Below, piece by piece: positions 3 through 14,853 of a DNA stretch of 57,423 bases (the first letter of the stretch is position 1; every line of letters begins with the position of its first letter). The notes beneath the pieces are model-generated. The model had not been told where the DNA came from and searched no databases. It was given only the letters and a program-made list of their open reading frames with translations. Source of the DNA: a bacterium (GTDB taxonomy: Bacteria; Planctomycetota; UBA8108; UBA1146); contig JAPOLY010000007.1 in NCBI GenBank assembly GCA_029976805.1, positions 1 through 57,423 of the forward strand, given 5' to 3'. The position numbers and the translations under genes were made by a program.

Positions 3-1067
3 TGGTTACAGTCATTCAGTGTTCGATCAGGTGATCTCCGGAATCTGGAAGCCCACTGGAAGGCACGGGTAGGGGACGCCCTTTCCTCTGATGATCGAGC
101 ATGGCTCAGTCTCAAAAAGAGTCGTCCCCTCAGGGTCTTGTTGGTCGGTGAGGAAAACCTCATTCTCAAAAACGCCCTTTCAGTGGTCGACAATGTTCAA
201 TCAGAGTGGCTTCCCTTTGATGACATCGATCTGGAGTCTCTCTCCAGAGATTATGATGTGGTGATCTGGAATCGTCAGATCCCCGAGACACTCCCCAGAG
301 GGGTTGGGCATCTGGTGTTTGATGCTGTTCCCTCACCCTATTGGGCGGAAGTTCCACCCGTTGTTGAACAGCCGCCCCTGGTCCGTTGGGCCGCAGACGA
401 TCCGGTGTTGCGGTTTTCTTCCATGTCACCGCTGGACGGGCGCATCCTGAAAGCACGGCCCCTTCCTTCAGGAAAAGGGACTCGTGCTCTGGTCGAAGTG
501 CGTGAAGGGGCATTGATCTCCCGCTTTGCTTCGGAAGGTGTGAGGGGCATCGTTGTTTCCTTTGACATCCTTGAATCGAGTTGGCCCCTGAGCCCCTCCT
601 TCCCACTGTTTTTCACGGCTACACTGAGGGACCTGGGAAGACAAAACAGTGGAATCAACTCTGGGGTTCGCAGTGGAGACCTCGTTGAAGCACGACCGGG
701 TGGTGAAACCCGAGAGTTGTTTCATATCGATCCTGCGGGAATCACCCGCACCCGTTCCCTGGACAGGGATGGCCGAATGCAATGGAGGGCTTCCGACCAA
801 CTTGGGGTTCACAGATTCCAGAGTGAGAAGAGTTCAGGGGAAGAGGATTCAAATCCCACGGGCTCCTTTTCACTCGAAGTGCCGGTGAACCTGCTTTCAC
901 TCGCAGAAAGCAGGATCGAACCCCGGCCAGGCGTCATTCTCGGTTCTGCCTCTACGACAGCCGAAGGATTTTCCTGGGGGGAGGCTCGCAGGGAGTATTG
1001 GCCGTGGTTGATGGTTTTGGGGTTGTTGGCTTTGCTCTTGGAGTGGATCGTCTATCACCGGCGATAA
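3..1067 (+). CDS. BatA/VWA-type membrane protein, C-terminal part (5' truncated by window edge)
   Basis: The frame is open from base 3, so the gene begins outside the window and 354 residues of its C-terminus remain. Just inside the edge the segment DDRAWLSLKKSRPLRVLLVG resembles the region of planctomycete BatA/von Willebrand-type double-transmembrane proteins where a 'D-x-A-W' motif precedes a Rossmann-like strand. The body is a soluble, probably periplasmic region. It closes with one hydrophobic helix (WPWLMVLGLLALLLEWIVY) and a basic tail, which fits a C-terminal anchor. The VWA domain itself and its metal-binding motif are not in view. The family assignment rests on architecture and this motif. 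The TTG at 138 is only an internal codon and is not a believable start. Confidence 0.6.
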   Translation, partial: WLQSFSVRSGDLRNLEAHWKARVGDALSSDDRAWLSLKKSRPLRVLLVGEENLILKNALSVVDNVQSEWLPFDDIDLESLSRDYDVVIWNRQIPETLPRGVGHLVFDAVPSPYWAEVPPVVEQPPLVRWAADDPVLRFSSMSPLDGRILKARPLPSGKGTRALVEVREGALISRFASEGVRGIVVSFDILESSWPLSPSFPLFFTATLRDLGRQNSGINSGVRSGDLVEARPGGETRELFHIDPAGITRTRSLDRDGRMQWRASDQLGVHRFQSEKSSGEEDSNPTGSFSLEVPVNLLSLAESRIEPRPGVILGSASTTAEGFSWGEARREYWPWLMVLGLLALLLEWIVYHRR

Positions 1068-1101
1068 TTTGGTGACCCGGGCTTTACGAGAGGATATCCA
1101 G

Positions 1102-1542
1102 ATGAAATTGACCGTCTATCTTGCTGGCCAGATTCATGATGATTGGCGTGGGCGACTCGAGGCAAAAGCACAGGAGCGTGATTTGCCGATCGAGTTTGTC
1201 GGACCACAGGATGATCATCCCCTCAGCGATGCCATTGGCGAAAATATTATTGGTGAACAACCCAATGCCCGATGGAAAGATGAACTTGCTTCACAGTTTA
1301 ATAATTTGAGAACCCGGGTACTGATGAACCGTTGTGATGTGGTCGTTGCCCAGTTTGGCGAAGAATATCGTCAGTGGAACGCCGCGATGGACGCAGGAAT
1401 CGCCATCGCAGCGGACAAGCCGCTGATACTTGTCCGTGATCCTTCGCTTCACCATGCCCTCAAGGAGATTTCCCAGCGCGCCCAGGCCACGGTCGATCAT
1501 CCCGACCAGGTCCTCGACGCACTGGAATACATCCTTCACTAG
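1102..1542 (+). CDS. ytoQ: YtoQ family protein (nucleoside 2-deoxyribosyltransferase-like)
   Basis: 146 residues beginning MKLTVYLAGQIHDDWRG, the characteristic start of the YtoQ family. The family is placed by fold with nucleoside 2-deoxyribosyltransferases, but its substrate is unknown. Further family-like segments are GPQDDHPLSDAIGENI and the acidic stretch WNAAMDAGIAIAADKPLILV, where the deoxyribosyltransferase fold keeps its catalytic Glu/Asp. ATG 1102 is chosen over an upstream in-frame start at 1069 because GAGAGGAT lies 5' of it and it gives the family N-terminus. It follows the BatA-like gene by 34 bases on the same strand and ends one base before the convergent alpha-2-macroglobulin gene. 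No signal peptide is seen, so it is probably cytoplasmic. Confidence 0.8.
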   Translation: MKLTVYLAGQIHDDWRGRLEAKAQERDLPIEFVGPQDDHPLSDAIGENIIGEQPNARWKDELASQFNNLRTRVLMNRCDVVVAQFGEEYRQWNAAMDAGIAIAADKPLILVRDPSLHHALKEISQRAQATVDHPDQVLDALEYILH

Positions 1543-1543
1543 G

Positions 1544-4500
1544 TCAGTCCGTTGCCTGTTTGATCTGGATTCCCTTTTGGGTTGCTTCCACATCAGTACG
1601 CCATTGTGAGTTCCGAGTACCGAGGTTGTCCGCATTGAAGCGAATCACATTCTGGAAGTAATCCTCCATTTGTAATTGCTGGACCGTCTCAAAGTCTTCT
1701 TCCATCTCTTGGCCATACCAGTCCTGAATCTCATCGAGCTCTTCGCTGATGCGGGACGAGGGACCAGACATGCGATAGAAAGCGTAATCACTTTTCCCTC
1801 TGCGGGCGATGACCGTGTACTGATTCGCGGTTGCGGCGAGGAAAAGGCCTCTTTTGTCGGTGGTGCCGAAGGTGGTTCCATCTCCCCTCGAGCTGTAGGG
1901 GTTGAGTACTCGAACATCGACATCGGGAATCAGATTGCCAGTGGTCGGGTCGACAATCTGGACACGCAGGGAACCGGAGCGATTCTGAACCACCATCTCC
2001 ATGCGATTGACCAGGATGAGACCTGAAGTGTGAACATCCCCACCCCTGACGATGACCAGATAGGCACCTTCTTCCTCGATCGGGATTTCGATCTTGCGAG
2101 TGGTATGAAGGGTTCCTCCGGCAGTTCCCTGAGCACCCAATTCGACGGTTTTGCTCAGGGTCGGGGAGATTCCGCTGAGTTTGACTTCAGTGACACGGGA
2201 GAGATCCTGTTCACGAAGGGCCAGAGTCATGAGATTGACTTTGTAGGCGAGCACTTCTGCGCTGTCGATGTTGCGATACCGGAGCTCTACGGCCACCGGA
2301 TCTCCAGGCCTGAACTCGGAAATCTCATCGAGCTCGAGTTCACGGGCATTGATCTGCCGCAGTGAATCACGGGCATCTGCAAACTGCGCCTGAACCTGTT
2401 CATAGTATTCAGAAGCCTTTTCGGGTTGATTTGCGGCATGGTGAATCTGACCGATGATGAAGAGGGCCAGATCACGGTTTTCGCTGGGTCGATCGCCTCC
2501 CGAAGGAATCGGGTAGCGGCTTGAAGCGATTTCTTCCAGTAGCTGAAGTGCATCGTCATCTTCACCCAAAGCCCACATCGCGACGGCCTGGGTGTAGCGG
2601 AAGGAATCGAGATATCTGGGCTTTTGATAGCGCTTCGCGAGCATTTCCGATTCTCTTCGGGCAAGAGTCCAATTCTTGCTTCCCAAAAGATTACTGACGA
2701 GGTTGAGTCCTGCATCAGGAGCGGTGGGGTCGGAACCGTGCAATGCAAGGAATCGGTAGAGAACCCTGCGTCCGTTCAGGCCCAAACTGATCCGATCTTC
2801 CATCGACAAATCTCCGCCTCCGGAAGAGGTACCGAGTGCAACGTCGGCAAGGTATTGCTCGGCAGCAAGGACGGCAGGAGTCGGTGGATTTTCCAAAGTC
2901 AGCCTTTGAAGCAGATTGAGAGCTGGTATGAGGTCGCTTGCCGAGAGAAGGTCGCTGACCTTGCGATCACGGGCGAAGATCGCCTCATTGACCGCACTGA
3001 AGATCTCCATGGATCGAGAAGACTCGCCCAAAACCCGATACGCTTCTCCCAGACGCATAAAGTTCACGAGACTGAGAGAAAGATCCGGGTTTCGTTCTTT
3101 GAGGATTTCAAAGAAGGAGACCATCGACGAATTGTCGCCTGCTTCCATGGCGGAGAGCATGAGGATTCTTGCCATTTCTCGGGCAGGGGCTGTTTTCAGT
3201 TCTTCGGAGTACTCAGTCCATAATGGTTCAAGTGTTTGTCTGGATTCACGCCAGCGTCCATCTTCCCAGAGCCTCGTTCCTCTGGCGTAAAGTTCATCGG
3301 GTGTTGGCCTGTATTCATCGGGGTTGATCTCCCCTGAATTTAACACCGTCACTACCTGAGATTTGCCAACGGTCATTCGTTGTGGTTCTGCAACACTGCG
3401 GATGATCACGGGAGGCATCCGATACTCTCCGGGACTGACAGCCACCACAGAGAACTCTGTGTTGATTCGCCTGTTCAATGTTCCCCAGATTTTCAATACT
3501 CCGCGTCGGTATTCATGGTAAGTAAAATTGCCATTCAGTGAGTCCTGATCCAGGATCAAGCCACTGGGAATCTGCACCTCCATCTCGACGAACTCACTCC
3601 GATTTCCGGGGCTGGAGACCTTCAGTTCAAAACGGGACGATTCACCTGGAAGAAGATGTCGTACGTTATTTTTCCAGCGTTCTCGGGTCTCTCTGAGAAT
3701 ATTGAAACCGATGGGAAGTTCGCGCCCGGACATGCGGGGAGGGACGGTCAGGAATTGGGTTTCATTGACACTGAGATCTCGATCCTTGAGTTCAGGATAT
3801 CCTTCAAAGTGACCTGACAACTCTGCTGTAAAGAAAGCTCCGCTGTCTCCACTGACCCGGGTTGCCAGATCGAACTCTCCGGGTCCATCACCCAGTTCCA
3901 GAAGCAGTGAATCATGATTTTTCCCATCACCCACCCTCAGTGTTCCACGGTCAGTGCCATTGATGCTGAAAATTACCTCGCACGCTCTCTGACTCGGCAC
4001 AGCCACGCTTTGCCACTTGAGGAGCGCAGCGATGGACAGAGCACTGCTGCGGTTGAGTTGGAATGTGAGTTGATTGCGAAGCCAACGGGAAGTTGATTCC
4101 AGTGCACTGTTGGGAGCATTGGCCATTAACAGGGAATGCAACGACATGGCGGTGAGGAATCTTCCTCCACGATAGAGAGCGAATTCAGCCTTTTTGGTGT
4201 CACTGTCACTCCAGGAGCCGTCATCGTTCTGACGATCCAGAAGGGTCTGGACGACCTCTGTAGCCATGGCATTTTTCTTCAAATGCGACAGTGCACGAAT
4301 CAGTGCTCCCAATCCGGAATTGGAAAGTTTGGTACGGTTTCTGTGAAGTCGATTGGCCGCACCAAAGTCAGCGGAACCACTGCTCGCCAAGGCCGACAGA
4401 AGAATCGCTTTTTGATTCAGTTTGCTTTGATCGGTATTGCGGAATTTCTCTTCCAGATGGGGGATAGCCCGACTGAAGACCCGGTCTGGAACAGAAAAAC

Positions 4501-7500
4501 CGGAAGACCGGGCCATAGAAAGGGATTCAAATACCCAGGAAGTGACCACCACTGAGAAAGTATCACTTCGTGAATTTTCAGCAGGGATCCAACTCCAGTC
4601 ACCACGGCTGTTTTGTGCAGTGACCAGTCTTTGAATTGCCTTTTCTGTCAATGCACGAAGTTGTTCTTCGTCGGGTTTGTTTATTGAACCGGATTGCTCT
4701 GATGAGATTGCAAGAGCTTGCAGATAAGCAATCAGTTGCGACGCCGTAGTGAAGTTATCACTGATTTCCGGAGAGGGTCCGGGAATCAGGCGGCTCATCG
4801 AAGGACGACTCGTCAGACGATTGACAAGACCGGAGTCGATGGTCGCCCCCAGAGTGAGCCTCAATTTGCGATCAAGAAGTTGTGTGCCTTCTGAGATGCC
4901 CACTTTTTCACGTTGTGATTCACCAGAGAGAATCCAACTGTCCCGACTGAAAGCATCCAGCCCCCATCTTTGAATCGAGACTTTGCCATCCTGGGTCCAA
5001 CTTTGCCCATCGACTGTGACAGTGATGCGATAGGGGAGGTCGGGATCCGTTCCCAATGCCGGCCAGCGGTCGAGAAGAACTTCCTGAAGCCCAGGAAGGA
5101 GTGCGATGATTCTTTCCGAGACGTTTTCTGCGTACCCTGAGGGCCAAGAGATGGAAACGGAAGCCTGAGTCTGTAGCCCGGTATCGTTGAAGATGCGGAC
5201 CCTTGGTGTGATCTCATCTCCTTCCAGTGCGATTTGAGGAATCAAAGATTCGATCACCAGTTTTTCACGTGTCACAAAGTTCGATTGGTTTTCACCAAAG
5301 AGATCTCCTGATGCGACTCCCCGTGCGCGAATACGCCATGTCGAGTTACGATCGGGGACGCGGAATGTCACTGTTCCTTTTCCCGAAGAATCGGTCTTCA
5401 GTGCACCTTCCCAAAACGCGAGATAGCGTGTGGCAGGTTTTTCTTCCTCACCGAGCATGAGCAAGTCCTCGGCATTTTTTCCACCTCGACCACCGATGGA
5501 ATTCAAACCCCTCCCAAAACGGGATCCATAGGCACCGCCGGACGCTCCCTCGGCGTACATGACTTTTTTGCTGGCAAGTCCCCTGTCACGACCTCGTGAC
5601 ATGACTTGGCGCGCCATTTCCGCAGCCGGAGCGGGCATGGCAGCATCCGCATTCGCCATAACTTCCAGACCGAGGGACAGGGATTTCTCCATTTCCCTCT
5701 CCTCGAGACGTCTCTCCTCTGCCAAGAGGCTTTCCTCGATGGCTTTGGTGACACCGGTGTAGCGAAACTCACAGGAGGAAGCGATCGACAGGATCCGTGC
5801 TGGATCATGAGAGCTCTGGGAAACGGTCAGCTTCCTGAACCAATCGGGGTAGAGATCATCGATCGATGCATCCAGAACAGCCAATGCAATTTCAGCGGAA
5901 ACGGGCTGATCCAGAAGATCCTTTGTTTCCACTTCCAAAGTGACTTCATCCCCTGGATTGATGGCACCATCAGGGGGAGTGATGGAAACTTTCAACTGAC
6001 GGCGGATTTTGAAGGTAGTCTCTGCTTTATGGAGGCCCGTCTGGTTCATCATTGCCAAGCGAAGAGTGGCTGCAGATCGAATCGCCGGATCGGCTATGAA
6101 TGAAAGGGTGTTCTTTCCCTTTCGCAAATTGACGATTCGGTGATTGACCAACTGATCACCCAGAATGGTCAACAATGCGGGGCCAGAAGTTCCATTACAT
6201 TGAAGAGACAGTTCCTTCTCTTCACCGATAACCAGCGCCACATCATCGACGAGCCAGAGCAACTGGGAGTCGTCTTTTTCACCGAAAACACGAATCGACT
6301 TTTGTGCACTGATGGGGTGTCCCCAGCGATCGATTCCTTCCGCTTTCAGGATCAGGGAGCCTGCTTTTTCAAGGGGTACCCGGATTTGTGCGAGGCCATT
6401 TTTATCTGTGGAGACCTCGAATTCTTCCAGACGTTTGACACTCCAGCGGTTCGCACGGCGGACTCTCTCCGAGAGAGAGAGAGTCATCGTCTTGCTGACA
6501 GGCTCACCAGAGAGATCTTTGGCAAGAACCGTGACGGGAACACTTTCACCGAGCATGAACTGACCGCCCCGGCGAGGAATCTCCAATGATATTTCCCACA
6601 GCCGTTGTCGGAGGGGAATTTGCAGAGTGCGCTGGATGCCCTCACTTTGGAGTATCGCAACAAAATTGAGGGTTGAGGATTCAGCGGTGCGCGAGTCAAA
6701 GGTGAAGGTCGCACTGCCCTGATCATCAAGGATCAGTTTTTCCTCTATCTGCTCATTTTGATAGGGAAGCAAGATGCTGACAGCGGTTCCACCAAGAGGC
6801 TTCCCGTACCAGGTCTGGGCGGACACTTTCAATTCAATCTGTTCACCACGGACGTACACGTTTCGCTCAGCAGTGAAGTCCAATTGGACCGGAAGAGGTT
6901 TGGGAACTTCGACATTGAAGTTTTGCGATGCCCTGAAGCCGTTCGGTGAAACGATCTCCAGGCGCCAAAGTCCCATCGGGGCACTGGTCGGAAGATCGAC
7001 AGATCCATGCAGGGTTCCCAGATCGCCAAACGACGATTCCTCCCTGAAAATTTCCATCCCTTGCGGATCGAAGATACGGACTCGACCTGTTTCACCTGCT
7101 GGAAGACTCCATTGTTGATCTTTCAGGTCCCTTACGAGTGCGCTCCAGCGAACAGAATCACCCGGCTGATAGGTGGCGCTATCCATCAGAATGTGGCCCA
7201 AAGGTGAAAGCCCCCTGGCCACCAGCGTATTGCCAAGACCTACACCGGAAACAGCGGAGTCGTTTTCGCGGATGGCCAATACCCGCACACTGTCGTCTTG
7301 TTTCAAACCTTCATATTGGATTCTCACCGTACCGTCGGAGCCGGTGACAACGTCTTGTATGACAGGCTGATCATCGGGGCCCGGGGTTGCGATCAGAATG
7401 CGCGTCTGAGGGGCAGGTTTCATTTGAACCATGTCTTGGGCGTAGATCAGAACGTCTTTGCGACCCGCTTGAACGATCATGTCCAGGTCAGTGCGAACCA

Positions 7501-9571
7501 CAAGAGTGGTTGCCTTGAGTTCGCCCGCAGTGACGACTACAGCCCATGTACCCTGCCCATCCACCGGAAGATCCACACGTTGGGAACAGGGGCGATAGGG
7601 CTCATGGCCCAAAACGTCGACATCGAAACTCTTCCAGGGGTCGATCAGGTCCAGATCGAGTTGCTCAATATTTTTCCGTGATTGGTATTTACGAAAATAG
7701 GCTTGGATGTCGATGGGGAAGAGATCGACACTGACAGACTCAATATTTCTGGTATCCAGAGTGAAACTTGCAGCATCTGTCGAGCGATACAACCTTTCCG
7801 TTTCTATGGAAAGGTCGATTTTCGTCAGTTGTGCAAGACGCGATCTGGCAGCAGATTCGTAACTGCCGCCGAAGCACTCACGATAGGCTTCCACCGCATC
7901 AGCGGGCTTGAGCAAGTCCTCTTCCAGAATCACAGCAACATCGAAGATGGCCCTTTGCCCCTCATTGTCAGTGGGGTACTTGCCGTTGAGTGCACGAAGT
8001 TCGGTGATGGTCTTCTCAAGGAGATTACTCACTTCCTCAGGAACACTGGCTTCCTGAAGATCCAAATCTGCCAGTTTCGAGCGTGCTTCAGAAGCCCAGG
8101 TTTTGGCGGATTGGTAAAGCAGCGGGAGGGTCTTGCCGTGAATCGGATACTTTTGAGAAAAAGTATCAATCGCATTTCTCGCCGCGGAGTAATCCTCTTC
8201 AGAGAGGAGTCGTTCACAGATCCGGGCTTCGATTTCGATACAGTTTTCCTGAGATTGGGCCCACTCTGCACCGTCAGGGAATTCGCTGACATATTTACGG
8301 AAAGTTTCGAGGGCACTTTCCAAGTTTGCCAAATTCCAATGGGCGTTTCCGACGGTGAAGAGAGTGCGGGATCTGAGTTTGGCCAATTCCGAATCTTCAG
8401 TGAGGGCCGGAATTTCTCCAAACAGTTCAAGCCAATGATCGATGGCTTGTTCAGCACCTGAAGTTTGTTCGATCAGACTTCCGAGTTGGAAGCGGGTTTC
8501 CCAGTATTGAGGGTGACCTTCGCCAACCTCGATAAATCTGCGTGTTGCTGCCAGACGTGAAGGAGCTTGCCGATAAGTGTCGATGATTCGGAGCAGTGAT
8601 TCCTGGCGAATCTCTGCAAAAGGTTTGTCGACATTTTCAGAAAAGAATCGAGCACGCCACGGGTGCCCACTGATTTCATTATCAATTCGTGCGATGAGGT
8701 CTTCGAGGGATCGGCGTTTCATGACCGGATTCATCGAATCGGTGCGGCTCAGCAAAACAGTGAGAAGGTTTTTTCCGAAGTATTCGTCTTCGATCACTTC
8801 GTTACCCTGTTTTTCCCGGTAATCGAAATTTTCCACATATCGATCGGCGTCCTCATGGGGGAAGCCAATTTCATCAGAGCAGCGAACCAAAGCGAAGAGC
8901 GCTTTTTCCAGAAGTGGTGCAGGTGGGTTCAATTCAGCGGCTTGCTGGTAGACTGCATGGGCCTTTAGGAGGTCTCTGGGCTTCTCTTCAGCCACTCCCG
9001 GATCTCTTTCGGCGGAAAGAAGATCTCCCTCCTCAATAAGCAACGAGGCTAACTCAATGCGCCGCTCTTCAGAGTGCAATCTCAGTGTTTCCTGTTCGAT
9101 GATTCTCTGTGCTTCACCAAATCGTCCCAAATCTTTGAGGATTCGCGCTTTGAGAAATCGGGCCCTGTGAAACCAGCGGCCGTTGGGGTAATCGGATTCC
9201 AACTTGCGCAACATTTCGAGGGCGGGTTTCGATTGATCTGTTTGTTCAAGCAATGAAGCTTGGAAAAACAGCCAATCTTCCTGACGCTCAGGCTTTTCTT
9301 CTGCCAATCGGTCGAGGATTTCGAGACCTTCAGTCGCTTTGCCGAGAATCATGGCTTCTCGAAGATCCTTGGGGATCGGACTGCCGGCGATGGGAAGCAA
9401 CTCTGGTTCCGAGGGCTTTTCAGAGTCTGATTGAGCCAGGGCAGGCAGGGCCATCGACAGTAAAAGACTGAAAGTGAAGATGACGAAGAGAGCGGAGCTG
9501 AACTGAGATCGGGGAGCTCTCTTGGCAATCAGGAGTGGAAGTTGCGGATAGAAGTTGAGAAGGGGTCTCAT
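1544..9571 (-). CDS. Giant secreted TPR / alpha-2-macroglobulin-like protein (thioester motif absent)
   Basis: 2675 residues. The start is the ATG at 9571, preceded by GGAGG; it gives a signal peptide with a hydrophobic core near residues 27-45 ending in an ALA-Q cleavage site. Order seen: TPR-like helical repeats (about 75-575); MG-type beta domains, including the MG2-like TYQPGDSVRW near 805; a Gly/Ala/Arg-rich bait-like loop (about 1320-1370); the A2M domain (GTVTFRVPDRNSTWRIRARG, about 1400); then a helical thioester-domain-like segment with GDWSW near 1659. The CxEQ thioester expected near 1585-1605 is replaced by RLTSRPSMSRLIPG. A second TPR block (about 2090-2405) and C-terminal beta domains follow. 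Bacterial relatives are periplasmic or envelope protease traps, usually beside a penicillin-binding protein 1C, which is not found here. The envelope location is inferred. Trapping by covalent thioester chemistry looks impossible. Confidence 0.85.
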   Translation of the reverse strand: MRPLLNFYPQLPLLIAKRAPRSQFSSALFVIFTFSLLLSMALPALAQSDSEKPSEPELLPIAGSPIPKDLREAMILGKATEGLEILDRLAEEKPERQEDWLFFQASLLEQTDQSKPALEMLRKLESDYPNGRWFHRARFLKARILKDLGRFGEAQRIIEQETLRLHSEERRIELASLLIEEGDLLSAERDPGVAEEKPRDLLKAHAVYQQAAELNPPAPLLEKALFALVRCSDEIGFPHEDADRYVENFDYREKQGNEVIEDEYFGKNLLTVLLSRTDSMNPVMKRRSLEDLIARIDNEISGHPWRARFFSENVDKPFAEIRQESLLRIIDTYRQAPSRLAATRRFIEVGEGHPQYWETRFQLGSLIEQTSGAEQAIDHWLELFGEIPALTEDSELAKLRSRTLFTVGNAHWNLANLESALETFRKYVSEFPDGAEWAQSQENCIEIEARICERLLSEEDYSAARNAIDTFSQKYPIHGKTLPLLYQSAKTWASEARSKLADLDLQEASVPEEVSNLLEKTITELRALNGKYPTDNEGQRAIFDVAVILEEDLLKPADAVEAYRECFGGSYESAARSRLAQLTKIDLSIETERLYRSTDAASFTLDTRNIESVSVDLFPIDIQAYFRKYQSRKNIEQLDLDLIDPWKSFDVDVLGHEPYRPCSQRVDLPVDGQGTWAVVVTAGELKATTLVVRTDLDMIVQAGRKDVLIYAQDMVQMKPAPQTRILIATPGPDDQPVIQDVVTGSDGTVRIQYEGLKQDDSVRVLAIRENDSAVSGVGLGNTLVARGLSPLGHILMDSATYQPGDSVRWSALVRDLKDQQWSLPAGETGRVRIFDPQGMEIFREESSFGDLGTLHGSVDLPTSAPMGLWRLEIVSPNGFRASQNFNVEVPKPLPVQLDFTAERNVYVRGEQIELKVSAQTWYGKPLGGTAVSILLPYQNEQIEEKLILDDQGSATFTFDSRTAESSTLNFVAILQSEGIQRTLQIPLRQRLWEISLEIPRRGGQFMLGESVPVTVLAKDLSGEPVSKTMTLSLSERVRRANRWSVKRLEEFEVSTDKNGLAQIRVPLEKAGSLILKAEGIDRWGHPISAQKSIRVFGEKDDSQLLWLVDDVALVIGEEKELSLQCNGTSGPALLTILGDQLVNHRIVNLRKGKNTLSFIADPAIRSAATLRLAMMNQTGLHKAETTFKIRRQLKVSITPPDGAINPGDEVTLEVETKDLLDQPVSAEIALAVLDASIDDLYPDWFRKLTVSQSSHDPARILSIASSCEFRYTGVTKAIEESLLAEERRLEEREMEKSLSLGLEVMANADAAMPAPAAEMARQVMSRGRDRGLASKKVMYAEGASGGAYGSRFGRGLNSIGGRGGKNAEDLLMLGEEEKPATRYLAFWEGALKTDSSGKGTVTFRVPDRNSTWRIRARGVASGDLFGENQSNFVTREKLVIESLIPQIALEGDEITPRVRIFNDTGLQTQASVSISWPSGYAENVSERIIALLPGLQEVLLDRWPALGTDPDLPYRITVTVDGQSWTQDGKVSIQRWGLDAFSRDSWILSGESQREKVGISEGTQLLDRKLRLTLGATIDSGLVNRLTSRPSMSRLIPGPSPEISDNFTTASQLIAYLQALAISSEQSGSINKPDEEQLRALTEKAIQRLVTAQNSRGDWSWIPAENSRSDTFSVVVTSWVFESLSMARSSGFSVPDRVFSRAIPHLEEKFRNTDQSKLNQKAILLSALASSGSADFGAANRLHRNRTKLSNSGLGALIRALSHLKKNAMATEVVQTLLDRQNDDGSWSDSDTKKAEFALYRGGRFLTAMSLHSLLMANAPNSALESTSRWLRNQLTFQLNRSSALSIAALLKWQSVAVPSQRACEVIFSINGTDRGTLRVGDGKNHDSLLLELGDGPGEFDLATRVSGDSGAFFTAELSGHFEGYPELKDRDLSVNETQFLTVPPRMSGRELPIGFNILRETRERWKNNVRHLLPGESSRFELKVSSPGNRSEFVEMEVQIPSGLILDQDSLNGNFTYHEYRRGVLKIWGTLNRRINTEFSVVAVSPGEYRMPPVIIRSVAEPQRMTVGKSQVVTVLNSGEINPDEYRPTPDELYARGTRLWEDGRWRESRQTLEPLWTEYSEELKTAPAREMARILMLSAMEAGDNSSMVSFFEILKERNPDLSLSLVNFMRLGEAYRVLGESSRSMEIFSAVNEAIFARDRKVSDLLSASDLIPALNLLQRLTLENPPTPAVLAAEQYLADVALGTSSGGGDLSMEDRISLGLNGRRVLYRFLALHGSDPTAPDAGLNLVSNLLGSKNWTLARRESEMLAKRYQKPRYLDSFRYTQAVAMWALGEDDDALQLLEEIASSRYPIPSGGDRPSENRDLALFIIGQIHHAANQPEKASEYYEQVQAQFADARDSLRQINARELELDEISEFRPGDPVAVELRYRNIDSAEVLAYKVNLMTLALREQDLSRVTEVKLSGISPTLSKTVELGAQGTAGGTLHTTRKIEIPIEEEGAYLVIVRGGDVHTSGLILVNRMEMVVQNRSGSLRVQIVDPTTGNLIPDVDVRVLNPYSSRGDGTTFGTTDKRGLFLAATANQYTVIARRGKSDYAFYRMSGPSSRISEELDEIQDWYGQEMEEDFETVQQLQMEDYFQNVIRFNADNLGTRNSQWRTDVEATQKGIQIKQATD

Positions 9572-9820: not shown

Positions 9821-10729
9821 CTAGGATCCGATGATTTGCAGGATTTTTCCACGAACACCGATCACGCAACGGGCTTCAACAAGACTGTTACTGCGATTTT
9901 CAACAGCATGGCCTTGCCAAGAGAAATCGAAGCTATCGCCGATTCTTTGAAGAAAGGAACCGGTGTGCCAGGGTTCCGTTGGGGGATCCCTGCGGCTGGG
10001 TCCCAGCAGAAGGTGGCTGAGCCCCCTGGGTTCGAGTGCCCTGCGAACCGCTTCGCCCAAAACGCCCAATGGGATGTGTCCGCAGTGTTGTCCAATATTG
10101 GTGGTACCTGAAAGTTTGGCGATCCACTTTCCCAGGGGAGTCTCGGGTTCTACCTGAAGTTTCCATGGGTGGGCTCCTCTACCCCGGACCTGTGATTCGA
10201 GATTCGCCAACTCCTCTGGCGTGCCATTGACCGGTTGCCACTCTTCGCTCCCCGGGATGACGTTGGCAACGATGGCGAAGGCCACCCGACGTATATTTCC
10301 ATCACAGTCTGCGGTCCAGACTCCGCCAAAAAAGGAGGGATCATCGGGGTCGTCAGGGTTCTGTTTCACCTGCCCGAATGTGAACTGTCGATCCTTGCCA
10401 CTGCGGCCTCCGTCATTGACGTTGGTCAGACGCCATTTCTTGCCACCTTCCTTATTGCACCAGTGGTCCAGTTCTTTCTGAATGATGGGGTTCACAAATC
10501 CCGATCGGGGGCGATCCCTGTCATCGAGGCAGACCTCGATCAGTTGGAGGGTGGTCTGGATAAATTGGCCCGCAACCTCGGTATCAAGACCGGATTCGAG
10601 TGAATCAGGCTGCATAGTCAGAGATTCGAGGAGAAAATCAAACTGTCCGGAATCGATGACGCCCTTGTCCAGAGCCTTCTGGAGGAAGCCACGTGTATAT
10701 TCATTGAGATGGTTGTGGTCCTGATCCAT
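9821..10729 (-). CDS. Hypothetical protein, family not recognised
   Basis: 302 residues, no signal peptide and no membrane segment, so it is probably cytoplasmic. The N-terminal third (about 1-80) looks helical and acidic, starting MDQDHNHLNEYTRGFLQKAL. The middle is rich in Gly/Asp/Pro with short conserved-looking stretches such as DDPSFFGGVWTADCDGN. The C-terminal part is basic. An AGGAAAGG sequence lies upstream of ATG 10729, with rather long spacing. It stands alone between two other transcription units and diverges from the rhodanese-ThiF gene. Coding is supported by length and the absence of a better frame, not by a known family. No function is proposed. Confidence 0.6.
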   Translation of the reverse strand: MDQDHNHLNEYTRGFLQKALDKGVIDSGQFDFLLESLTMQPDSLESGLDTEVAGQFIQTTLQLIEVCLDDRDRPRSGFVNPIIQKELDHWCNKEGGKKWRLTNVNDGGRSGKDRQFTFGQVKQNPDDPDDPSFFGGVWTADCDGNIRRVAFAIVANVIPGSEEWQPVNGTPEELANLESQVRGRGAHPWKLQVEPETPLGKWIAKLSGTTNIGQHCGHIPLGVLGEAVRRALEPRGLSHLLLGPSRRDPPTEPWHTGSFLQRIGDSFDFSWQGHAVENRSNSLVEARCVIGVRGKILQIIGS

Positions 10730-11991: not shown

Positions 11992-12169
11992 TCTAGTGTG
12001 TATCTCTGTTGTAAATAATGCTTTGTTATTATATTAATTTTATTTTGGTTATTGCGGTTGGTCATTAATGTCAGTTTACTTGGGGTGATTATTTAGCCGG
12101 AGGTCCGTGGGTTAACTGCGGATATTCACGGCATAGTGCGTGGAAGATATTTAATTGCGGAAGAGAAAT

Positions 12170-13084
12170 ATGTCCCTGCCCAGCCTTAAGCCGGTACTGA
12201 GAAGTATTGCATTCCTAACCCTGATAACAGGAATAACGGTTTCTGGAGATCTTCCAGGAGCGGATGACACCATCTATCTCGGCGGAGCTCATGGCCCGCA
12301 AATCTACAATCCACAAGCCCGTATTCAGCCAGGGGGTGTGGAGGAATTTTCATTCTTCTTCATCGATCCTTCCAGCAACATTCAGGGATTCACGATTGCC
12401 GCTTGTTTCGAGCCGCCACTCATTGCCTTGCCGGGTTCCTTTTCCATCGAAAACACGGTGCTCGAAGATGTGGGAGCGGAGTATGTCGAACAGCAGTTTG
12501 ACAATGACGATGAGGATGGAGATGGTCGTGAAATTCTCATCGGTATTCTTGTCGATTACCTGCCACCTTTTGCCGGCCAGACGGTTCCTCCCAGTTTTCT
12601 CCCTCAAGAGATTGGCTATTTCGAGTTTTATGCGCCTGAAGAGGCGGAGTGTTTCGAATGCTACACAGTGGAGTTCTGTGACAACATCAACGGAACCGGA
12701 GGAGTGTTTCTGTCGAACAGGGTCGTGATAGGCAACCAGTCAATTCCACCTGAATTAACTTACCCTGGACAGGTCTGTGTCCCGGCTACGGCATTATTTA
12801 TTCGTGGCGACAGCAACAATGATGGCATCGTCGATGTCGCGGATCCGATCTTCTCTCTGCACTATCTCTTTACGGATGGGCTGCAGCCGAGTTGTATGGA
12901 TGCTGCTGATGCAGACGATGATGGTTTCTACAACATTACCGATGTGGTTTTCACACTGTACTTTGTCTTTGGTATCGGTATCGCACCGCCGTATCCCTAT
13001 CCGGAATGCGGACTGGAAGACTACCCCGGAGACGATGAATTTAACTGTATTCAACCTTCCGGCGGTTGTCCGGAATGCCCCTGA
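12170..13084 (+). CDS. Secreted protein with C-terminal planctomycete dockerin-like module
   Basis: 304 residues from ATG 12170, chosen over the TTG at 12155 because GGAAGAG sits just upstream. It begins with a signal peptide (hydrophobic about 12-27). The middle (about 40-200) is a beta-rich, acidic domain with a Cys-containing ECFECYTVEFC segment, probably cohesin-like or Ig-like but not identified. Residues about 208-290 carry two Ca-binding loops, DSNNDGIVDVAD and DADDDGFYNITD, each followed by an aromatic 'LHYLF' or 'LYFVF' helix. This is the dockerin type I-like module common in planctomycete secreted proteins. It closes with PYPYPECG and a Cys-rich tail ending CPECP. The stop overlaps the next gene's ATG (TGATG), suggesting coupled translation. 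The function is unknown. Confidence 0.75.
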   Translation: MSLPSLKPVLRSIAFLTLITGITVSGDLPGADDTIYLGGAHGPQIYNPQARIQPGGVEEFSFFFIDPSSNIQGFTIAACFEPPLIALPGSFSIENTVLEDVGAEYVEQQFDNDDEDGDGREILIGILVDYLPPFAGQTVPPSFLPQEIGYFEFYAPEEAECFECYTVEFCDNINGTGGVFLSNRVVIGNQSIPPELTYPGQVCVPATALFIRGDSNNDGIVDVADPIFSLHYLFTDGLQPSCMDAADADDDGFYNITDVVFTLYFVFGIGIAPPYPYPECGLEDYPGDDEFNCIQPSGGCPECP

Positions 13085-14853
13085 TGAAACGCGGGAGCAG
13101 GTCCAAAATGCGTCATATTCTTTTCTCCCTGATGATTCCTGTTTTCTTCTCAACCACGGTGTGGGGAGCGGATCGCTTCGTTCCCGATCAGTTTGCGACC
13201 ATCGCGGAAGCGATCGCCGCTTCCAATGATGGTGATCGCGTTCTCGTATCCCAGGGAACCTATGAGGAGTTCGTCGATTTTTCCGGCAAAGCGATTGAGG
13301 TGATAGGGGTTGATGGGCCAGACCTGACGATTCTTGAGGGCGCTTCTTCTTTCCTGTCGGTAGCAAAGATCGATGCACTTGCAGGGAACAGTCGATTGGA
13401 AGGGTTCACTCTCCAGAATGGCTTCGGGGTCAGCTGTGGAGATCCTTTGACGATTTGTGGCGGAGGCGTGGTCATTCTCCAATCTTCCGCGGTGATTGAG
13501 AACTGCATTTTTGTGGGGAACACATCATCCAATGGTGGTGGATTACATGCTGAAGAGTCGGCCTTGATCCTCACGGGTTGCACATTCATGAGCAACTTCG
13601 CCAATCAGGGAGCAGGCGTATCTATCGACGGGGGTTCTTGCGAAATTTCCCAGTGTGATTTTATTGGTAACACTGCCTATGCCTGGGGGGGCGGTTTGTT
13701 CGCCGACAATGAAGCAGAGTTGACCATTGCTGACTGCAATTTCACCGCAAACAGCAGTGAGTCCGGTGGCGGATTCATGATGTCAGGGGCGATCGGAACA
13801 ATGTCGAATTGCCTGATTGATGGCAATCAGGCTATTGATGAAGGAGGCGGTGGCCTCTTCGAGCAGTTTGCCAACTTCTCAGTCAGTGGGCTCCAGGTGA
13901 TCCAGAATACTGCGAGTGATGGTGGTGGCCTGGGGATTACCCATTTCTCCACAGTTGATCTGGTCGACAGTGAGATCAGCCTCAATAGCGCGGACAACGA
14001 CGGCGGTGGAATCTACAGTTTTGAGAACTTCTCCACGTATCGCAGATTGAGAATCGTGGGTAATAGTGCGGATCAGCGTGGGGGTGGCATGATGTTGCGC
14101 TTCTTCGGCGATCCTCTCGTGGAGAACTGTCTGATTCTGGGTAATCAGGCAAACGTTACAGGCGGTGGAATCGGCTGTTCAGAAGACGTTTCACCCCAAA
14201 TTCTTCACTGCACACTCGACCGAAATATCACTCTCGGTTTGGGTGGCGGGATTCGTGCTGACAACCTTTGTTTCCCGACACTCGTTAATTGCATCATTTG
14301 GCGCAATCGGGCCCAGCAGGAAACGGGAGTCTCCACTGGTCCACAGTCTAGCTTTGATTTGATTCACGTGTTGATGCAGGGAGCCGATCCGGATGACCCT
14401 CTCGTCTTTCAGCAGGATGCTGAACTGAATGACTTCGGATTTCCTGGTGAATGTTCGGCAGCCATCGACGAGGGCACAGGCGATTATCCTGGACTTCCCG
14501 ATACCGATATCGATGGTGTCTCGCGGCCTCAGGGATTGAGGCGTGATCTTGGAGCGCACGAAGTTTCAGGTTTTGGTCACTGTTTTGTTCGGGGTGATTG
14601 TAACGGAAATCAGGCGGTGGATATTGCGGATGCCCTGTTGGTTCTTGGCTATCTGTTCAATGGCGTAGAAGTCACCGGTTGTGTGGAAGCCTGTGATTTT
14701 CAGGATGATGGTTTTGTGACCGTGACCGATGCGATCCAAACCATTTCATTGCTGTTCTCGGGTGGATCTCCTCCCACACAGCCCTATCCCTTCCCGGGTC
14801 CTGATGTGAATTTGCTCAACAGCCAAATCAATGAGTGTTGGGTCTTGCCCTAG
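13084..14853 (+). CDS. Secreted parallel beta-helix protein with dockerin-like C-terminus
   Basis: 589 residues from ATG 13084, which overlaps the previous stop. An in-frame ATG at 13108 is an alternative and keeps the signal peptide (MRHILFSLMIPVFFSTTVWG). Residues about 40-400 are right-handed beta-helix repeats of the Pmp-like type, with recurrent GGG-I/L/M turns followed by 'N.F..N.A' coils, starting with the FATIAEAIAASNDGDRVLV segment typical of pectate-lyase-like folds. A choice-of-anchor or LamG-like stretch ends in RDLGAHE. The C-terminus holds two Ca-binding loops, DCNGNQAVDIAD and DFQDDGFVTVTD, as in its neighbour, then PYPFPGPD and a tail with a single Cys. Probably extracellular or surface-attached. 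No catalytic residues could be assigned. Confidence 0.78.
   Translation: MKRGSRSKMRHILFSLMIPVFFSTTVWGADRFVPDQFATIAEAIAASNDGDRVLVSQGTYEEFVDFSGKAIEVIGVDGPDLTILEGASSFLSVAKIDALAGNSRLEGFTLQNGFGVSCGDPLTICGGGVVILQSSAVIENCIFVGNTSSNGGGLHAEESALILTGCTFMSNFANQGAGVSIDGGSCEISQCDFIGNTAYAWGGGLFADNEAELTIADCNFTANSSESGGGFMMSGAIGTMSNCLIDGNQAIDEGGGGLFEQFANFSVSGLQVIQNTASDGGGLGITHFSTVDLVDSEISLNSADNDGGGIYSFENFSTYRRLRIVGNSADQRGGGMMLRFFGDPLVENCLILGNQANVTGGGIGCSEDVSPQILHCTLDRNITLGLGGGIRADNLCFPTLVNCIIWRNRAQQETGVSTGPQSSFDLIHVLMQGADPDDPLVFQQDAELNDFGFPGECSAAIDEGTGDYPGLPDTDIDGVSRPQGLRRDLGAHEVSGFGHCFVRGDCNGNQAVDIADALLVLGYLFNGVEVTGCVEACDFQDDGFVTVTDAIQTISLLFSGGSPPTQPYPFPGPDVNLLNSQINECWVLP

Follow-up and report, generated by a model that had tools for sequence, protein, structure and literature searches.

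A planctomycete alpha-2-macroglobulin core between two copies of a TPR and beta-domain module: predicted secondary loss of the thioester and a bait loop that co-varies with a loop of toroid proteins

A long gene in the planctomycete DNA analyzed here (the window, a stretch of 57,423 nucleotides) raises the question of how an alpha-2-macroglobulin (A2M) came to lack its thioester and what such a protein could do. The sequence-only reading had described a 2675-residue protein at positions 1544-9571 with recognizable A2M- and thioester-domain-like parts, no CxEQ motif, a Gly/Arg-rich bait-like loop and TPR blocks on both sides. The frame was borne out and lies on the minus strand, with an ATG at 9571, a stop codon that ends at 1544 and a GGAGG just 5' of the ATG. 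Full-length orthologues in the same genus and family share 42-95% identity with the protein, three relatives were found at 94-97% identity, and partial matches occurred in five plasmid records. It is the sole Pfam A2M match found in its assembly.

Pfam confirmed the A2M character of the protein with matches to the MG2, MG3, bait-region and A2M domains (Table 1), and bMG3 and bMG10 were matched below the Pfam cut-offs. The MG, bait-region and A2M domains stand in this order, which places the protein in the A2M superfamily, and a profile of its MG part matched Salmonella A2M with an E value of 1.6e-19. Pfam TPR matches flank the A2M core on both sides as described before, but the two blocks turned out to be parts of one duplicated module. 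Copy 1 consists of TPR block 1 and the first beta pair, copy 2 of TPR block 2 and the second beta pair. Residues 330-790 and 2076-2675 align in hhalign with an E value of 1.3e-38 over 373 columns that cover both the TPR and the beta parts, and a C-terminal profile matched residues ~556-733 in the N-terminal copy (E 2.7e-24). The alignment to E. coli YfhM, which starts at position ~185-191 for both copies, is good for the N-terminal copy and modest for the C-terminal one (for the C-terminal beta pair, hhalign probability 59 against YfhM 185-362 and E 3.8e-5 against the YfhM fragment 4zjh). TPR block 2 is also matched at residues 2290-2402 by tol_pal_ybgF, under its cut-off. Since the two ends are related to each other, the protein is, judging from these profile alignments, a single A2M core flanked on each side by a copy of the same module of TPRs and two beta domains, not a core between two unrelated TPR blocks. 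The part that follows the second TPR block, a beta pair and a tail of 75 residues, had been missed.

Table 1. Coordinates of the A2M gene, of its predicted parts and of neighbouring frames in the window
Feature	Residues	Positions	Strand	Basis or remark
Whole A2M gene	1-2675	1544..9571	-	ORF; ~2670-aa orthologues in same genus and family
Signal-peptide-like N-terminus, ends ALPALA	1-46	9434..9571	-	judged by eye from sequence
TPR block 1	~60-599	7775..9394	-	Pfam YfiO (402-533) and TPR families; NCBIfam OM_YfiO under cut-off
First beta pair	600-786	7214..7774	-	aligns to E. coli YfhM from ~191; second half is Pfam bMG3
Pfam MG2	792-887	6911..7198	-	E 1e-16
Further MG domains	891-1105	6257..6901	-	Pfam MG3 at 897-961
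A2M bait-region domain	1109-1239	5855..6247	-	Pfam, E 2.5e-6
Bait loop	1290-1384	5420..5704	-	alignment; co-variation with toroid-protein loop
Bait-loop core EGASGGAYGSRFGRGLNSIGGRGG	1341-1364	5480-5551	-	alignment
Pfam A2M domain	1385-1473	5153..5419	-	E 3.6e-13
TED alpha/alpha toroid (predicted)	~1580-1860	3992..4834	-	profile matches; low-confidence model
Stretch with lost thioester site	~1590-1609	4745..4804	-	three alignments, exact place differs
bMG10-like domain	1957-2064	3380..3703	-	Pfam E 1.7e-4, under cut-off; profile matches
TPR block 2	~2080-2415	2327..3334	-	Pfam TPRs at 2369-2399; TPR and BamD matches
Second beta pair	~2416-2600	1772..2326	-	hhalign against module copy 1; YfhM matches
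C-terminal tail	2601-2675	1547..1771	-	common to main thioester-less clade
YtoQ-type nucleoside deoxyribosyltransferase-like gene		1069-1542	+	convergent with A2M gene
302-aa frame		9821-10729	-	just upstream of A2M gene; no Pfam match
Two frames with dockerin-type matches		12155-14853	+	one match under cut-off

A sequence search found no CxEQ anywhere in the protein, neither at the expected site nor elsewhere, and by this measure it is not a Type I A2M. When it was aligned to thioester-bearing relatives, the cysteine of the motif fell on E1602, D1605 or R1594, depending on the alignment; the alignment to R1594 splits the motif by a gap and places EQ on residues 1607-1608. Thioester-less members have insertions in this stretch, so that the site is not placeable to the residue. 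The segment RLTSRPSMSRLIPG (residues 1585-1598), which had been quoted as the former thioester loop, overlaps or just precedes the site; the three motifs quoted in that reading start at residues 1399, 1585 and 1657. Among thioester members the mean column entropy of residues 1590-1612 is 0.96, the lowest of 16 regions, whereas in the main thioester-less clade it is 2.93, the highest of 16 regions, a value to which misalignment may contribute. No replacement motif was apparent at the former site of this clade.

The fold around the lost site appears to persist. Thioester-bearing TEDs can be aligned with thioester-less ones along the full domain (hhalign E 1.6e-41), and a profile of 14 thioester-less members including the window protein matched Salmonella A2M with an E value of 1.5e-45, with a best stretch (970-1645) that spans TED and MG10. 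The AF2 prediction for the isolated TED has low confidence (pLDDT 50, pTM 0.49). Its three best Foldseek matches were E. coli and Salmonella A2M, at E values of 0.006-0.03 with none below 0.001, and those that followed were mostly complement C3 and its relatives; after realignment of the matches E. coli A2M leads with a Z of 10.8 and an rmsd of 5.3 over 201 residues, in a list made up mostly of A2M and complement entries. Because helical proteins can reach such a Z by arrangement alone, the TED assignment leans on the alignments, according to which the predicted alpha/alpha toroid is kept though the thioester is gone. A model of residues 1476-2075, computed with AF2 from three near-identical sequences, reached a pLDDT of 35 and was discarded.

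The distribution of the thioester among planctomycete homologues was used to place its loss. At E 1e-20 the C-terminal module was found in 88 of the 294 Planctomycetota genomes sampled, and the frames that carry it, unless cut short, are mostly 2300-3000 aa long; three genomes of the window's family (G007, G010 and G012) lack it at full strength. A search of 59 genomes with the full-length protein gave a match at E 0.001 in 47, many of them only other A2Ms or toroids. Loci were fetched for part of the C-terminal-module matches, with long frames preferred, which yielded 80 family frames, 75 of them longer than 2200 aa, and it is on these 75 that the thioester counts rest. PYGC[VTLI]EQ or a close variant is present at the aligned site in 28 of them and absent in 47, and 43 of the latter, the window protein included, form one main thioester-less clade. 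In a tree of the MG core (residues 640-1290) these 43 full-length members make up exactly one side of a branch with an SH-aLRT support of 99. The C-terminal-module tree (80 rows, three C-terminal fragments unlabelled; SH-aLRT only, quick search) unites 45 thioester-less rows and two unlabelled fragments in one group with a support of 100. One alignment row, that of L047, contains N and has an unreliable end. The other four thioester-less proteins (L127-L130) sit outside the main clade. In L127, L129 and L130 the site reads RGGGLET, compared with PYGCLEQ in relatives, and there is no tail. On both trees the thioester state requires a minimum of three changes, and two genomes (G052 and G076) each carry one thioester-bearing and one thioester-less protein.

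A2Ms outside the TPR-A2M-TPR family are known to retain the thioester, as was seen for YfhM, and loss is thus the likely direction of change. Since relatives of the same architecture keep the motif, its absence is taken to be secondary, and the alignments and trees indicate that the thioester was lost within the planctomycete family. The tail follows the same division. All 43 clade members carry a C-terminal tail of 55-89 residues, compared with 0-5 residues in all 28 thioester members and 0-2 residues past the last beta domain in the four thioester-less outsiders. Because the tree shows the gain of the tail and the main loss of the thioester as a single event, this link is not statistically independent. 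The lineage of the window protein would accordingly have undergone a single loss of the thioester, kept the TED fold and gained the tail. In some sub-branches of the clade (L096, L097, L099, L101, L102, L106, L061, L084 and L055) a shortened TED was observed, with 245-259 aligned residues compared with ~300.

The gene neighbourhood gives no partner of a known type. The earlier statement that no PBP1C gene adjoins the A2M gene holds for the seven neighbouring frames scanned in the window. A search for the GT51 domain (PF00912) was likewise negative in the assembly, which is 91% complete, and positive as a control in 10 of 14 genomes, so that the genome presumably has no PBP1C; a PBP1C gene beside a Type I bacterial A2M is frequent but not universal. 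None of the DUFs named beside yfaS was among the Pfam matches of the same seven frames, and neither a mag operon nor yfa-type neighbours, which would mark a Type II locus, occur among them. All-against-all clustering of the flanking frames of 80 loci, a coarse procedure in which antisense frames were also clustered, gave no family-spanning cluster among the 25 largest listed; the largest comprise 13 loci, all in the window's family f1, and outside f1 those listed reach at most five loci. In 10 loci of the window's family an upstream neighbour on the same strand was found, to which the 302-aa frame probably corresponds. The second of the two dockerin-type frames also contains polymorphic-membrane-protein-type repeats.

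The Gly/Arg-rich bait-like loop that had been noticed is present, and the proposal that it might be hypervariable holds for its flanks, which vary strongly among relatives. The loop is not simply hypervariable, however: many relatives share a core like IGxGGGAGGxFGGRxGGRR, and the loop co-varies with that of a second protein family. A strict core pattern was matched by 14 of the 43 clade members, 11 of the 28 thioester members and none of the four others; a looser pattern was matched by 19, 13 and none, respectively, and in the control (the first 1200 residues) by 2, 0 and 0. Of 12 genomes searched with a peptide query, 11 gave matches, and 10 of these 11 had matches outside the TPR-A2M-TPR frame. 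In the window's own genome, a DNA pattern for the bait core matched at one place on another contig.

The co-variation was quantified with one toroid protein per genome, the 90 residues before its toroid domain being compared with the A2M bait loop. Toroid proteins were searched with the toroid part of L142 without its loop, L142 itself having been found through its loop, and matches at E 1e-15 were obtained in 47 of the 47 genomes searched. A first test comprised 40 of these genomes, and the main test 26, one per family; the toroid protein was the best-listed match in all 26, and in the 40-genome test the second match was used for G107. In the 26 genomes own-genome loop pairs average 73 compared with 48 for foreign pairs. 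The row- and column-centred excess is 24.3 with a permutation SD of 3.2, and none of 20,000 permutations was as high in this test, which is not tree-aware; ten random draws of one genome per family gave 0 of 5000 permutations each. Composition-matched shuffled loops score 1.4, which is still above chance (11 of 20,000), and eight other A2M regions are unremarkable, with 604 to 3979 of 5000 permutations as high. The window genome ranks first of the 26 and pairs GASGGAYGSRFGRG with GAGAGAYGNRFGKG. Other striking own-genome pairs were observed in G070, where DAYGVGGGAAGAYGQRWG occurs in both loops, and in G189, G247 and G181, and in six of the 26 (G052, G024, G276, G143, G243 and G132) the own-genome score lies below the foreign mean.

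Codon usage bears on the origin of these pairs. In 19 mostly high-scoring genomes, identical loop residues shared their codon in 248 of 461 cases, compared with 225.9 expected when codon usage is taken from the A2M gene only; this small excess is similar to that between genomes (1930 of 4042, compared with 1786.7 expected). Given this similarity, recent gene conversion does not account for the pairs in general, and constraint at the peptide level, not recent copying, would explain most of the loop pairs. An exception is G054, for which the loop of a second toroid protein, closer to that of the A2M, was used: 30 of 39 codons are shared compared with 18.3 expected, so conversion or duplication may act in this genome. 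The co-variation suggests an endogenous partner shared by the bait loop and the toroid-protein loop, rather than a general protease bait.

The loop-bearing toroid proteins are ~480-590 aa long and have, by eye, a hydrophobic TonB-like N-terminus, a Gly/Arg core and the toroid domain directly after it; they are probably membrane-anchored. Pfam SQHop_cyclase_C was matched in five of five proteins scanned, in four of them over the cut-off, and one of the five has a VWA domain. One toroid protein of the window's genome is L200 (C11:1-3000, minus strand 1-1440), and L139, L142, L144 and L148 are similar; in L200 and L142 the squalene-cyclase-type toroid lies under the Pfam cut-off. Gene order around the toroid genes of four genomes gave no clear lead. 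The same Gly/Arg core also stands before the VIT domain of two VIT-VWA proteins (L195:2349-5018 and L196:87-2198), the former with an additional weak PDZ match; no VIT protein was found in the window's own genome. A minus-strand frame of 1634 aa in L197 (G167) resembles by eye a second A2M and carries the core GGGAYGGRMGGRRNLIARGGG in the bait position.

These observations would fit an A2M that acts as a non-covalent trap or scaffold and is tuned to a partner shared with the toroid proteins, a function which we consider quite possible, if short of probable. The protein would be secreted, as its signal-like N-terminus suggests by eye, and probably periplasmic, and would work without a covalent bond. 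An endogenous partner, for which a periplasmic protease is a plausible candidate, would recognize the exposed Gly/Arg loop of the protein and might also read the similar peptide on the membrane-anchored toroid proteins of the same cell. A2Ms change shape upon bait cleavage, and recognition or cleavage of the loop could drive a rearrangement of this type. The partner or its cargo might then be physically held, for which the Type II protein MagD is a precedent. In a more specific form, which is put forward tentatively, the loop would be a genome-specific peptide address read by one endogenous periplasmic protease or receptor, the Gly/Arg copies on toroid proteins, some VIT-VWA proteins and the apparent second A2M would co-evolve at the peptide level, and the thioester-less clade would form a non-covalent shell, similar to that of CAGE, which closes on the partner.

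Other explanations account for part of the evidence. The protein could be a plain Type II-like A2M that broadly traps foreign proteases entering the periplasm without a covalent bond, the loop being an ordinary bait and the TPR modules partner-binding arms. Its losses and retentions are those of MagD (PMC5764988), the loop flanks are highly variable, and no second Pfam A2M match was found in the genome. A general bait should, however, diversify independently, whereas this loop tracks the loop of another family in the same genome, and neither mag-like neighbours (seven frames) nor a widely shared neighbour set (clusters listed) was found; we regard this explanation as unlikely. Decay on the way to a pseudogene would fit the lost thioester and its degenerate site as well as the A2M frame of G008, which is broken in two, possibly by an assembly error. 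It is extremely improbable, as long stop-free frames occur across the genus, the family and the phylum and the C-terminal module is conserved (57% identical in a member of the same family that belongs to a different genus).

The A2M-like trapping might also have been lost entirely, with four copies forming a hollow container or scaffold like CAGE, which a 2025 preprint (PMC12485934) describes as a hollow homotetramer of ~1 MDa (Tetrahymena CAGE1, Dictyostelium AbpF). According to the preprint, domains 4 and 6 of CAGE1 find their best PDB match in A2M. Bacteria account for more than two thirds of the CAGE homologues, among which Planctomycetota and Verrucomicrobiota are prominent, and a signal peptide is predicted for most of the bacterial ones; by eye, the coarse domain order also resembles that of the window protein. 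On the other hand, no Pfam domain is reported for CAGE1 there and its fold is called novel by the authors, whereas the window protein has several Pfam domains, and the resemblance in order is at the coarse level of helical and beta regions. CAGE was not recognized among the 60 of 210 PDB matches listed for the family profile, which speaks weakly against the idea, and the preprint assigns no function to CAGE itself. We rate this container or scaffold as rather doubtful and prefer the non-covalent trap or scaffold tuned to a shared partner.

Both A2M forms occur in the same unusual architecture within one phylum, so that comparisons among relatives can address how the covalent bond was lost. Through the TPR-A2M-TPR family the unexplained CAGE complex also becomes accessible to a sequence test; if CAGE belongs to this family, it would be an A2M that lacks the thioester and carries both end modules. 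If the loop co-variation holds, the question of what bacterial A2Ms recognize narrows to finding a single partner that they share with the toroid proteins.

Thioester-less A2Ms as such are already known as Type II. As far as the searches show, the new elements are the architecture, the thioester loss with tail gain within one family, and the loop common to a second family; no description of the TPR-A2M-TPR family or of the shared loop was found in the literature searched, which lay largely outside subscription journals. E. coli YfaS, which we take to be a Type II A2M, is annotated as a pseudogene in K-12. MagD of P. aeruginosa, of Type II and without a thioester, was reported to hold TEV protease non-covalently after cleavage of an engineered bait (PMC5764988). 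Like MagD, the window protein combines an A2M core, a bait region and a TED without CxEQ, but it is longer (~2675 compared with 1495 aa), has a TPR and beta-pair module at both ends and a C-terminal tail, and was seen without mag- or yfa-like neighbours. Its position nested among thioester-bearing planctomycete proteins argues for a loss parallel to that of MagD and YfaS.

CAGE was compared by description only. According to the preprint (PMC12485934), the N-terminal half of CAGE1 is helical at 1-443 and beta at 444-1195, the last beta domain being split; the remainder is helical among split beta at 1244-1559, beta at 1606-1738, helical at 1751-2011 and beta at 2014-2215. With these boundaries set by eye beside the window protein the coarse helical and beta order agrees, and CAGE1 is shorter (2216 compared with 2675 aa). 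The Type I A2Ms (E. coli YfhM, Salmonella A2M) have MG domains, a TED and an MG10 homologous to those of the window protein, which differs from them in lacking the thioester, in having a TPR block in place of the first ~185 residues of YfhM, and in the absence of GT51 or PBP1C from what was found in its genome. The planctomycete TPR-A2M-TPR proteins with CxEQ (such as L053, L052 and L050) differ in keeping PYGCxEQ or a close variant and in being tail-less, and they share the architecture of the window protein from end to end, the duplicated module included.
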